Source of the DNA: an uncultured Flavobacteriales bacterium
Lineage (GTDB): Bacteria > Bacteroidota > Bacteroidia > Palsa-965
DNA: 53,425 bases
Reading direction: 5' to 3'
NCBI GenBank assembly: GCA_903873905.1
Contig: CAIQQJ010000012.1
Location: 1-53,425, forward strand
Shown: one piece after another, positions 23,018-27,400 of the stretch
Numbering within the stretch: the first letter of the stretch is position 1
Layout of the letters: the number at the start of each line of letters is the position of its first letter
Position numbers and translations under genes: made by a program
The notes under the pieces: generated by a model
Told to the model about the DNA's origin: nothing
Databases searched by the model: none
The model's input: only the letters and a program-made list of their open reading frames with translations

Positions 23018-24862
23018 TTAGGCATGATGTCCGCCACCATCTTCTTCACCTTCTCGCAATGGAACGGTTTGTGGAATGAAATCAGCTTCTTCACCAGGGC
23101 GACTGTAATCATATGGCCAACGATGAACTTCAGGCAATTCTCCAGGCCAATTACCATGTGTATTCGCCATTGGAGTAGTCCACTCAAGCGTATTTGAGTT
23201 GTATGGATTCTGAACCGATTTCGGTCCGCGGAAAATACTGTAGAAGAAATTGAAAAGGAAAATCAATTGACCACAAGCAGCGATGATCGCAAAAATCGTA
23301 ATCAAGACATTGATGTCCTGTAAATTATCAAACATCGGGAAAGCCGTATTCTGGTAATAACGACGTGGTACACCAGCCAGACCTAAAAAGTGCATTGGGA
23401 AGAAAACGCCATAAGCACAAATGAATGTAATCCAGAAATGCAGGTAACCCATGGTCTTATTCATGTGACGCAGGAATAATTTTGGAAACCAGTGATAAAC
23501 ACCGGCGAGCATTCCAAGAATCGCTGATACACCCATTACAATGTGAAAGTGGGCAACAACGAAATACGTATCGTGAATATTAATGTCAAGAGCAGAATCG
23601 GCAAGAATGATTCCTGTTACACCACCCGAAATAAATGTGGAAACCAATCCGCAAGCAAATAACATTTGCGGAGTGAATTGAATATTTCCTTTCCACAACG
23701 TTGTGATGTAGTTAAACGCTTTTACCGCAGATGGAATCGCAATAAGAAGTGTAGTGAATACGAATACAGAACCAAGGAAAGGATTCATTCCAGTCAAGAA
23801 CATATGATGACCCCAAACAATAAAGGAAAGGAAACCAATTGCAAGAATGGAAGTGATCATTGCTCGATAACCAAAAATCGGTTTGCGTGAATTGACAGAA
23901 ATGATTTCAGAAGTTAATCCGAGCGCAGGAAGAATAATAATATAAACTTCAGGGTGACCAAGGAACCAAAACAAGTGTTCGAAAAGAATCGGACTTCCAC
24001 CGGTTTGGTCAAGCGGATGACCACCGATGAAAATGTCTGACAGGTAAAAACTTGTTCCGAAACTTCTATCGAAAATCAATAGAAGTGCGCAAGAAAAAAG
24101 TACAGGGAAAGAAAGTACACCAAGAATTGCAGTAACGAAAATCGCCCAAATTGTTAATGGCATACGTGTCATTTTCATTCCTTTTGTTCGCATGTTGATG
24201 ATGGTAATGATGTAATTCAATCCACCAAGCAGCGAAGAAATAATGAAAAACGACATTGCAATAAGCCACAGCGTCATTCCAGTTCCAGAACCTGGCATCG
24301 CTTGCGGCAATGCTGACAGTGGAGGATAAACTGTCCAACCACCTGAAGCGGCACCATCCGTAACGAAAAGAGAAATAATAATCGTTACACTGGAAAGAAA
24401 GAAGAACCAATAGGAAAGCATATTGAGAAAACCTGAAGCCATATCACGCGCACCAATCTGATAAGGAATCAAAAGATTCGCGAACGTTCCACTCAATCCA
24501 CCCGTAAGCACCATAAAAACCATGATGGTTCCGTGAATCGTCACAAGCGACATATAGGCGTTAGGATCAAGAATTCCATCCTTGCCCCATTTGTCGCCCA
24601 TGATGGCGTTAATGAATGCGAACTTTTCACCCGGCCATGCGAGTTGAAGTCGGAATACGATCGACATAAGCATTGCAACACAAGCCATGATTACCGCAGT
24701 AATGAGGAACTGTCGTGAAATGGTTTTGTGATCCATACTGAATACATACTTCGCAACGAATGATTGGTGATGATCATGATCGTCGTGCCCGTGATGTACA
24801 TGCGCGTCGTGCTCCAGCGATTGCGCGTGAAGCTCACTATGTGCGTGCATATCAGTTGTCAT
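23018..24862 (-). CDS. ctaD: Cytochrome c oxidase subunit I (aa3 type)
   Basis: The catalytic subunit of the terminal oxidase, reducing O2 to water and pumping protons. The 614 residues have the expected about 12 helices and haem/copper ligands: the low-spin haem His in VTIHGTIMVF, the CuB His and crosslinked Tyr in LGHPEVYIIILP, the paired His in VWGHHMFLTGMNP, and VVAHFHIVMG for the haem a3 and second haem a ligands. The HPEVY tyrosine with FLSFIVWGHH marks an A-family, K- and D-channel enzyme. The first about 30 residues are an unusually His-rich cytoplasmic extension (HAHSELHAQSLEHDAHVHHG, then HDDHDHH). It is the last gene of the operon; no subunit III or IV genes follow, so they must lie elsewhere. 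Confidence 0.97.
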   Translation of the reverse strand: MTTDMHAHSELHAQSLEHDAHVHHGHDDHDHHQSFVAKYVFSMDHKTISRQFLITAVIMACVAMLMSIVFRLQLAWPGEKFAFINAIMGDKWGKDGILDPNAYMSLVTIHGTIMVFMVLTGGLSGTFANLLIPYQIGARDMASGFLNMLSYWFFFLSSVTIIISLFVTDGAASGGWTVYPPLSALPQAMPGSGTGMTLWLIAMSFFIISSLLGGLNYIITIINMRTKGMKMTRMPLTIWAIFVTAILGVLSFPVLFSCALLLIFDRSFGTSFYLSDIFIGGHPLDQTGGSPILFEHLFWFLGHPEVYIIILPALGLTSEIISVNSRKPIFGYRAMITSILAIGFLSFIVWGHHMFLTGMNPFLGSVFVFTTLLIAIPSAVKAFNYITTLWKGNIQFTPQMLFACGLVSTFISGGVTGIILADSALDINIHDTYFVVAHFHIVMGVSAILGMLAGVYHWFPKLFLRHMNKTMGYLHFWITFICAYGVFFPMHFLGLAGVPRRYYQNTAFPMFDNLQDINVLITIFAIIAACGQLIFLFNFFYSIFRGPKSVQNPYNSNTLEWTTPMANTHGNWPGELPEVHRWPYDYSRPGEEADFIPQTVPLREGEEDGGGHHA

Positions 24863-24926: not shown

Positions 24927-25922
24927 TCAATTCTGAGCTGTTGCAGAAGGCGGTGTTTTTCCACTGTAAAAAGGAACATGCCTTTTTGTCCAAACATCGA
25001 ATTCAGCTCTTGTTCCCACAACAATTTTCAGTTGCATATTAAAATGGCTCACGCCACAAATTTTATTACATAACAAAATATAATCAAAATCCTTATTTCC
25101 TGTCAACTCACGCATCTTTTCAGTTGTATATCGTGGATTAAAATGGAAATATGTTTGCATACCAGGAACAACATTCATTTGTGCGCGGAAATGTGGGAAA
25201 TAAGCACTGTGAATTACATCACGTGAACGCATTTCAAAATCCACTTCTTCATCAACAGGAAGGAAAATTGTGTCTGGGGAAATAAAATCATCATACCCCG
25301 TTGCATCAGTAGAATCAAGACCTAGTTCATTGTTATCATTGATCAGAAGGTAATTTGATTTCCCAAGTACATTGTCTTTCCCAGAATAACGTGCTTTAAA
25401 ATTAAACTGCTGCGCATAAATTTCAATCATGCGAGTTCCTTTTGGTGGTAGTGACATGGTATCATTCCACAAACGAATTCCGAGAAAAATAATCACGAAT
25501 AATACCACAGCTGGAACTCCAGTCCAAATCATTTCAAGTTTGTTATTGTGCGCGACAAATGTTGCACGTTGGCCATCGCGACCATAATACTTAAATCCCA
25601 TGTAGAACAGCAGGAAATTGGTAACCACAAAAACGATTGAAACAATAATCAAGTTAATGTCCATTAACCAATCAATCTTCGCACCGTGAACAGATCCAGA
25701 AACAGGCAACAATCTGTCTTTGTATTCCATGATCTGCCAAACGAAGAAGGCCATCAATGCAAAGTAGAACACAAGCATGATGCGACCCTGCAAACGGTTG
25801 TCACTTTCAGTCACTTTGTTTGGATCGATTCCCTTCAGTTTTGATGAAAGTTCAACAACACGGACAAGCTGCCAAATTGCAGCTGCTGCGAGAATCAAAA
25901 GAAAATAAATTAAATAATGCAT
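24927..25922 (-). CDS. ctaC: Cytochrome c oxidase subunit II (CuA)
   Basis: This subunit accepts electrons at the binuclear CuA site and passes them to subunit I. The 331 residues have an extra N-terminal helix (MHYLIYFLLILAAAAIWQLV), two standard anchor helices (about 48-68 and 87-110), and a C-terminal cupredoxin domain. CuA ligands are the His in RDVIHSAYFPHF, then CNKICGVSHFNMQL with both Cys, His and Met. No haem motif is present, so this is an aa3 rather than a caa3 enzyme, taking electrons from the cytochrome domains of ActA/ActE. It is preceded 32 nt upstream by a micropeptide gene copied from its own first 30 codons (25955-26089), and the leader sequence is duplicated too. Confidence 0.97.
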   Translation of the reverse strand: MHYLIYFLLILAAAAIWQLVRVVELSSKLKGIDPNKVTESDNRLQGRIMLVFYFALMAFFVWQIMEYKDRLLPVSGSVHGAKIDWLMDINLIIVSIVFVVTNFLLFYMGFKYYGRDGQRATFVAHNNKLEMIWTGVPAVVLFVIIFLGIRLWNDTMSLPPKGTRMIEIYAQQFNFKARYSGKDNVLGKSNYLLINDNNELGLDSTDATGYDDFISPDTIFLPVDEEVDFEMRSRDVIHSAYFPHFRAQMNVVPGMQTYFHFNPRYTTEKMRELTGNKDFDYILLCNKICGVSHFNMQLKIVVGTRAEFDVWTKRHVPFYSGKTPPSATAQN

Positions 25923-25954
25923 GGCGGAATACGATTATTCAGGTGTTTAGTTTT

Positions 25955-26089
25955 TTAATTATCAGTTACCCTATCTGGTATTTTGTTCTTGTTAAATTCT
26001 TTCAATTTAGATGAGAGTTTGACAATCAAAACAAGTTGCCAAATGGCGGCGGCGGCAAGGATTAGAATAATATAAATCAAGTAATTCAT
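25955..26089 (-). CDS. 44-residue single-helix peptide, paralogue of the CtaC N-terminus
   Basis: A short ORF with its own ATG (26089) and stop (25955), 39 nt after actF and 32 nt before ctaC on the same strand. The product begins MNYLIYIILILAAAAIWQLV and continues LIVKLSSKLKEFNKNK, then IPDRVTDN. Its first 30 residues match CtaC at 24 positions. At codon level about 16 of those 30 codons differ synonymously while only 6 change the residue, so protein sequence has been preserved since duplication. The 5' leaders also match (ACCYGAATAAT before each ATG). It has one membrane helix and a basic tail with no signal cleavage site. It is most likely a small subunit or assembly peptide of the complex III-oxidase supercomplex; that role is inferred. 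It is too short for usual gene-length cut-offs. Confidence 0.7.
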   Translation of the reverse strand: MNYLIYIILILAAAAIWQLVLIVKLSSKLKEFNKNKIPDRVTDN

Positions 26090-26128
26090 GAAAAATTTAT
26101 TATTCGGGTATGTTGTGTCGATTAAATA

Positions 26129-27400
26129 TTACTGGTGATGATGCAATCCCTCTTCAAGAAGTGCGTGGTTTCTAGCAAGTATAGGTGCTTTAGAAAGTGA
26201 ACGAAGAATCCAAAATGTGAAAAAGGAAACAAACGACAGGAACATTCCAATTTCAATTGCACCAATTCCCCAATGACCACCAACTGTTCCTGGCATTACC
26301 ATCAAGAATGTATCGGTCCAGTGGAAGAAAATAATCAGCAATGCAACAAAAAGCAAGAATGATTTATTTCTTTTTGCATCACGCGACATCAACACCAACA
26401 TTGGGAATGAGAAATTGACAATCATTGTAATCCAGAAAAGTCCACGGAATTGTTCCCAACGTTGCTGGAAATAAACAACCTCTTCAGGAATGTTTGAATA
26501 CCAAATGAGCATGAATTGGGAAAACCACAAATAGGTCCAAAGGAAACTTATTGCGAACATCCATTTTCCAAGATCATGCACGTGAGAAGGTGTAGCATAT
26601 TCCATTTGTCCACGTGATTTCAAATGCATCACCAATAAATTCGCTACAATAATTGCTCCCAACCACCAGCCGGCGAAATTGTACCAACCGAAAAGTGTAC
26701 TGTACCAATGTGTATCAATGGACATGATAACATCCCAAGAAAAAACAGAAGTTGTAAATCCAAAAAACACAAGGAAGATGGCAGCGTTTTTCAAATTGAG
26801 ATTCCAATTACGTGCTGTGTCCACACCTGCTTTCATCACATCCTCTGCAAGCGCATTTTTGCGTGCCCACATTTGGTAACACAGCCAGCCACCCATGAAC
26901 AAGAGTGTACGCCCCCAGAAAAATAAATCTGCGAAATAAGGTTTTTTATGATTGACAAGCGCATCAAATTCAGGACTTTTTGGATCATAAACTTTTTGAT
27001 CCTGCCACTCATAGATATGGTGAAATCCCATTCTGCCAGCAATAAAAATCAATAAGATAAGACCCAAGGCAATTGGAAGAAAAGTTCCTATTGCACTGAA
27101 AAGGCGCATAAAAACCGTACTCCAAGATGCTTGAGCTGCATATTGCAAAGCATAAAAGAAAGTTGCTCCAAGCGCAATGCCACCGAAGAAATAACTATTT
27201 ACAAGAAGGTTTGCCCAGAGACGTTGTCCGAGTGAAGAATGATGGTCTTCTAGTCCTTCGCCACCAACAGATTCAGGAGAATGGTGAAACACCAAACCTA
27301 AGATCAGTAGAAGCAAACCTGCACCAAAAAGAATCCACAAATTTCTTTGTGCCTTCGAGGAGAAGTTATACGTCAGGTTATTCAAGTTAACGTTGCTCAT
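26129..27400 (-). CDS. actF: Alternative complex III subunit ActF (NrfD/PsrC-like)
   Basis: A polytopic membrane subunit of alternative complex III, homologous to ActC and to NrfD/PsrC quinone-binding proteins. The 423 residues hold about ten hydrophobic helices, such as LWILFGAGLLLLILGLVFHH, LVNSYFFGGIALGATFFYAL and IALGLILLIFIAGRMGFHHI; conserved WDVIMSIDTHWYSTLFGWYN lies mid-protein. It ends in a His-rich tail (EEGLHHHQ). It follows actE by 23 nt and is followed by the 44-residue CtaC-like ORF. ActF does not necessarily bind quinol itself; in known complexes ActC has the quinol site and ActF may contribute to proton movement. Confidence 0.93.
   Translation of the reverse strand: MSNVNLNNLTYNFSSKAQRNLWILFGAGLLLLILGLVFHHSPESVGGEGLEDHHSSLGQRLWANLLVNSYFFGGIALGATFFYALQYAAQASWSTVFMRLFSAIGTFLPIALGLILLIFIAGRMGFHHIYEWQDQKVYDPKSPEFDALVNHKKPYFADLFFWGRTLLFMGGWLCYQMWARKNALAEDVMKAGVDTARNWNLNLKNAAIFLVFFGFTTSVFSWDVIMSIDTHWYSTLFGWYNFAGWWLGAIIVANLLVMHLKSRGQMEYATPSHVHDLGKWMFAISFLWTYLWFSQFMLIWYSNIPEEVVYFQQRWEQFRGLFWITMIVNFSFPMLVLMSRDAKRNKSFLLFVALLIIFFHWTDTFLMVMPGTVGGHWGIGAIEIGMFLSFVSFFTFWILRSLSKAPILARNHALLEEGLHHHQ

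Follow-up and report, generated by a model that had tools for sequence, protein, structure and literature searches.

A small open reading frame resembling the N-terminus of CtaC between actF and ctaC in a Flavobacteriales genome, and similar candidate peptides behind actF in other families

Small single-helix accessory proteins such as CydX and TorE/NapE accompany respiratory enzymes (PMC6134056). Subunit IIa (CbaD) of the B-type (ba3) oxidases has been described as the structural equivalent of a helix of subunit II; it substitutes for the helix missing from subunit II and, in that paper, shows no sequence similarity to it (PMC3128077). ActG of Rhodothermus marinus, a small protein of alternative complex III (ACIII) with one predicted helix, is encoded behind actF in only some act clusters and left no density in the structure (PMC5928083). 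Here, we describe an open reading frame (ORF) of 44 amino acids (aa), MNYLIYIILILAAAAIWQLVLIVKLSSKLKEFNKNKIPDRVTDN, which runs from ATG to TAA on the minus strand (25955..26089) of contig CAIQQJ010000012.1 from an uncultured Flavobacteriales bacterium (genome G000). The whole stretch of 53,425 nucleotides (nt) that was analysed is called the window. In it, the act operon is followed on the minus strand by ctaC, encoding cytochrome oxidase subunit II, and then by ctaD, and the small ORF lies between actF and ctaC. Its product resembles the N-terminus of CtaC and is referred to below as mini-CtaC, or mini; a single membrane helix, followed by a Lys-rich tail at the C-terminus, is predicted for it. 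Based on the sequence comparisons given below, we suggest, with about even confidence, that mini-CtaC is translated and serves ACIII, or an ACIII–oxidase supercomplex, as a single-helix accessory subunit or assembly factor.

Mini-CtaC is like subunit IIa of the ba3 oxidases in size and place. However, the CtaC encoded here retains its own first transmembrane helix, TM0 (the predicted model, with a mean predicted local distance difference test score of 85, has helices at residues 2–29, 39–70, 78–111 and 127–155), and the mini is a sequence paralogue of that helix. Furthermore, the oxidase is of the aa3 type, its genes follow an act operon, and in some cases the mini is not followed by any oxidase gene. 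Like ActG, mini-CtaC is small, has one helix and is encoded behind actF, whereas the R. marinus protein, at 130 aa, includes a long C-terminal domain. The identity of the two was considered and rejected: the R. marinus ORF behind actF (locus L387, with an actF product 100% identical to 6f0k_F) failed to match the mini-CtaC profile (E = 0.5), as did those of its relatives, the best of which reached 0.03. In Rhodothermus and its relatives (L387–L416), the ORF behind actF often encodes 101–157 aa with a YRIPIDRAM motif near the C-terminus, which is ActG in R. marinus; others have a different ORF of 250–270 aa at this place. The likeness to CydX and TorE/NapE consists in a small membrane peptide being encoded with a respiratory enzyme, and no sequence relationship is claimed. 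The parent gene is that of the CtaC of the Bacteroidota aa3 oxidase, of which TM0 (or TM0 and TM1) is the same sequence segment as the minis, but TM2, TM3, the copper domain and E24 are lacking in the latter. As a general kind, mini-CtaC is best placed among the accessory peptides with one helix that accompany respiratory enzymes.

The codon-by-codon alignment of the mini ORF with ctaC codons 1–30 gave 8 identical, 16 synonymous and 6 nonsynonymous codons, so that the two share 24 of the 30 residues. None of the four Ala codons is the same in both copies (GCC four times versus GCA, GCA, GCT and GCA). Both the shared residues of the 44-codon ORF and the codon counts thus agree with the initial annotation, which had been made by hand. 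When the genome was searched with its own CtaC, the mini ORF was recovered at E = 1e-9, far above chance. The hydrophobic helix LIYIILILAAAAIWQLVLIV occupies codons 4–23 (26021..26080) in the alignment to CtaC. By eye, the homology may run on to VTDN (codons 41–44), corresponding to the VTES/VTEN stretch of CtaC; codons 37–40 (IPDR, 25970..25981) would then be a 12-nt insertion relative to ctaC. With its end at codon 44, the ORF includes neither the copper-binding domain nor the canonical subunit II helices. Over its first 20 residues it hardly departs from the genus consensus, and there are at most 3 changes in codons 1–20 versus 7 in codons 21–36. The 39-nt spacer that separates actF from the mini ORF (26090..26128) has GAATAAT in common with the ctaC leader, and little else (p = 0.12 in global and 0.06 in local alignment against shuffles), so that a duplicated leader before both ATGs, as had been supposed, is weak.

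Selection on the duplicated fragment was assessed by the ratio of nonsynonymous to synonymous substitution rates (omega), estimated with a seven-taxon codon model and several placements of the fragment. The pairwise omega between the mini ORF and its own ctaC was 0.05, with half of the path being ctaC itself. The excess of synonymous changes between the copies, taken in the initial annotation as proof of conservation, is insufficient alone, because synonymous changes can fall on the ctaC lineage unless the two copies are equally old. The assumption of equal ages is justified by the two copies being in one genome, if their synonymous rates are alike. In the best placements, omega was about 0.001–0.02 for codons 2–20 (CtaC background, 0.033) and about 0.1–1 for codons 21–40 (CtaC background, 0.016, the most constrained stretch of the CtaC N-terminus). 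With ages left free, omega = 1 over the whole fragment was rejected (p = 0.0006–0.006). With equal ages, codons 2–20 had an omega of about 0.01, and omega = 1 for them was rejected at p = 1e-6 when the fragment was placed on the G000 branch and at a far smaller p when it was placed on the stem shared by G000 and G003; codons 2–20 and 21–40 differed at p = 0.005 or less, and codons 21–40 differed from the CtaC background rates at p = 3e-6. These results suggest, with moderate confidence, that the helix of the G000 copy has been kept and that its tail is relaxed. Conservation of the protein sequence, as originally claimed, therefore stands for codons 2–20 under equal ages and does not extend to codons 21–40, which are relaxed and have lost the near-invariant R21 and E24. 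The dN/dS check proposed with that claim had the same divided outcome, neutrality of the whole fragment being rejected and codons 21–40 showing the elevated omega given above.

In the genomes of the genus and family that were searched, no second copy was found, and every genome with a match showed ctaC alone. In relatives, the actF stop lies 33–52 nt ahead of the ctaC ATG. The genome G004, which is 66% complete, did not give even a ctaC match. By placement in the codon model, the fragment fits the G000 branch or the G000 and G003 stem about equally (log-likelihood difference of 0.13). Judging from these genomes, the G000 copy is a private partial duplication rather than a gene conserved across the clade; its absence from every close relative examined is one of the outcomes by which, in the initial annotation's own terms, such a conserved gene would be refuted.

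Mini-CtaC peptides behind actF were recognised in other families as ORFs of 33–70 aa that match the CtaC N-terminal profile, a description that covers the G000 ORF as well. The distance between actF and ctaC, measured at 228 loci, had a median of about 40 nt, and the gap contained a mini ORF at 10 of them. Minis between actF and ctaC were found in G074 and G169 (family f21), in G054 (f44) and in all three f14/g16 genomes examined, where they are packed a few nt from actF and 23 nt ahead of ctaC. Eight minis were rows of the search profile, and their own E-values are not independent; the f14 and f9 minis were outside the profile, and those of f14 matched it at E = 4e-6 to 8e-6. Some f21 act operons, in addition, end in a mini that is not followed by ctaC: G148, G170 and G168 encode 67–70 aa with TM0 and TM1 (L216, L218 and L217, respectively), and G157 (L219) has a stand-alone mini of 36 aa behind actF. 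In G148, ctaC is present elsewhere in the genome, and in G170 (97% complete) no CtaC match was found anywhere in the genome. The stand-alone minis of G148 and G170 share the same gene neighbourhood, with a panC-like gene on the other strand. The mini ORFs did not reach the cut-off of any family in Pfam or NCBIfam, and a 70-aa mini gave only chance-level matches to solved structures. In 21 other long actF–ctaC gaps, frameshifted mini remnants were sought and none was found above background.

Purifying selection was detected within three sets of these ORFs, with omega values of 0.13 for the G074/G169 pair (p = 2e-5), 0.13 for the G148/G170 pair (p = 5e-6) and 0.07–0.15 for the f14 pairs (p = 6e-3 to 2e-6). 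Since the members of each set share the mini form, their divergence probably postdates its origin. By protein score, the G000 and f14 minis are best or next best matched to the ctaC of their own family, and G054 and f9 are ambiguous; this suggests, although it does not prove, that the mini lineages arose independently. The general mini-CtaC class is better supported than its G000 member.

Some other ORFs were seen behind actF. The 450-nt gap at L027 (G069) contains an ORF whose product, of about 120 aa, resembles by eye the four-helix-bundle protein of rRNA intervening sequences. A repetitive 94-aa ORF (DSHDTKLDSKETNL repeats) in the 303-nt gap at L364 (G290) is unrelated to CtaC and was set aside. 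In f9/g11, L309 (G131) and L310 (G241) have a charged ORF of 46–50 aa with no obvious membrane helix where a helix-type mini stands in three congeners; other g11 species have short actF–ctaC gaps and no such ORF.

The minis are the TM0, or TM0 and TM1, of a CtaC extension (residues 1–66) lying outside the canonical subunit II fold. The ctaC gene of the window (24927..25922, minus strand) encodes 331 aa with Pfam COX2_TM and COX2 domains, modelled as helices followed by a periplasmic domain. The source of the mini ORF, codons 1–66 (25725..25922), is delimited by the starts of the matches: COX2_TM begins at residue 72, solved chains align by sequence from residue 77 and structural matches begin at about residue 67, with structural rows for residues 1–66 barely sampled because the oxidase domain fills the match list. 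The 70-aa minis match this extension, which canonical subunit II lacks. An alignment of 172 distinct CtaC N-termini has R or K at position 21 in 161 of them; at position 24, 148 have E or D and one has K or R. The G000 mini ORF has Leu at codon 21 (26027..26029) and Lys at codon 24 (26018..26020). Among the other minis ahead of ctaC, the two positions are N/R in G054 and Q/K, Q/K and E/K in f14; for the f9 candidates they are H/R in G283 and, by eye, Q/K in G336 and Q/R in G384, these rows being weak. The G074 and G169 minis have K or R at position 21 and D at 24, and the stand-alone minis have R or K at 21 and L, L, I or G at 24. E24 of CtaC is thus kept by no mini; the charge pattern was noticed in the data and had not been predicted beforehand. 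Upstream of the mini ORF, actF (26129..27400, minus strand) encodes the quinol-binding-like membrane subunit of ACIII (6btm_F, E = 4e-90). The next gene downstream of ctaC is ctaD (23018..24862, minus strand), assigned to oxidase subunit I by ORF reading and position.

It is conceivable, though somewhat unlikely, that the G000 ORF is a decaying relic, that is, a functionless partial ctaC duplication in one species whose open frame and intact helix reflect chance or recent origin. Partial tandem duplications are common mutational events, and the privacy of the copy within genus and family, the relaxation of codons 21–40 with the loss of R21 and E24, and the compatibility of codons 2–20 with neutrality when ages are free would all suit such a relic. 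Uniform neutrality of the whole fragment was nevertheless rejected with or without equal ages, and uniform decay fails to explain why the changes in codons 1–20 are so few against those in codons 21–36. Moreover, similar ORFs recur behind actF in other families under purifying selection, and no frameshifted remnants were found in the 21 other long gaps. We consider it quite unlikely that the ORF is what is left of a full-length ctaC, foreign or older, which diverged under selection and was truncated recently, so that its conservation would be uninformative on a micropeptide. The synonymous divergence between the fragment and ctaC, about as large as that among genus members, and the equivocal placement of the fragment agree with this origin. 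However, a recent truncation should have left codons 21–40 at an omega of 0.016, which is not the case (p = 3e-6), while codons 2–20 are conserved, and the fragment's top protein score is with its own ctaC. A role in cis, in which the ORF is an upstream ORF or a translated spacer for coupling or tuning the translation of ctaC and the peptide has no role of its own, appears very improbable. The 32 nt (25923..25954) that separate the mini ORF from ctaC, as well as the tight packing of the f14 minis, could be understood in this way, but amino-acid-level constraint in three ortholog sets and stand-alone minis without a downstream ctaC would be unexpected.

Several points weigh against an accessory subunit or assembly factor as well. 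With ages left free, omega = 1 for codons 2–20 alone was not rejected (p = 0.04–0.24), and the regional test hinges on both copies being equally old. Codon 20 was picked as the boundary after the differences had been read, which makes the regional p-values optimistic. For the G000 copy, which has no ortholog in the genus or family, selection was tested against a paralogue, over about 40 codons whose synonymous sites are nearly saturated. In f9, the three candidate minis are weak (profile E = 0.0009–0.1, two of the three placed by eye), and in the one f9 pair tested purifying selection was not detected. Finally, docking and helix pairing, as set out below, are steps that we infer for a peptide known here from its DNA alone.

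For mini-CtaC as an accessory peptide, we suggest the following course of events. A small separate gene would have arisen when part of ctaC, its 5′ end, was duplicated in tandem, and its product would be a single-helix membrane peptide that acts together with ACIII and with the aa3 oxidase wherever that is present. Because the minis have actF, and not the oxidase, as their stable neighbour, contact between TM0 of CtaC and ACIII is probable. The mini peptide may fill the TM0 site, or it may pair with CtaC's own TM0 through the change of E24 to K or R. Either way, it would aid the assembly of ACIII or of the supercomplex, cap the complex or make it more stable. A wider proposal, which we regard as rather unlikely, is that Bacteroidota repeatedly duplicate CtaC TM0 behind actF, that the charge swap (R21 lost, E24 to K/R) leads to pairing with TM0 or docking on ACIII, and that the minis are a recurrent unannotated subunit marking the joint between ACIII and the oxidase.

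If mini-CtaC is such a subunit, ACIII-linked oxidases would have a small component that has been overlooked and may be missed by gene callers. For the N-terminal extension of CtaC, a role could then be proposed as the part that meets ACIII, and the attachment of ACIII to the oxidase would become testable through the deletion or mutation of a single helix.
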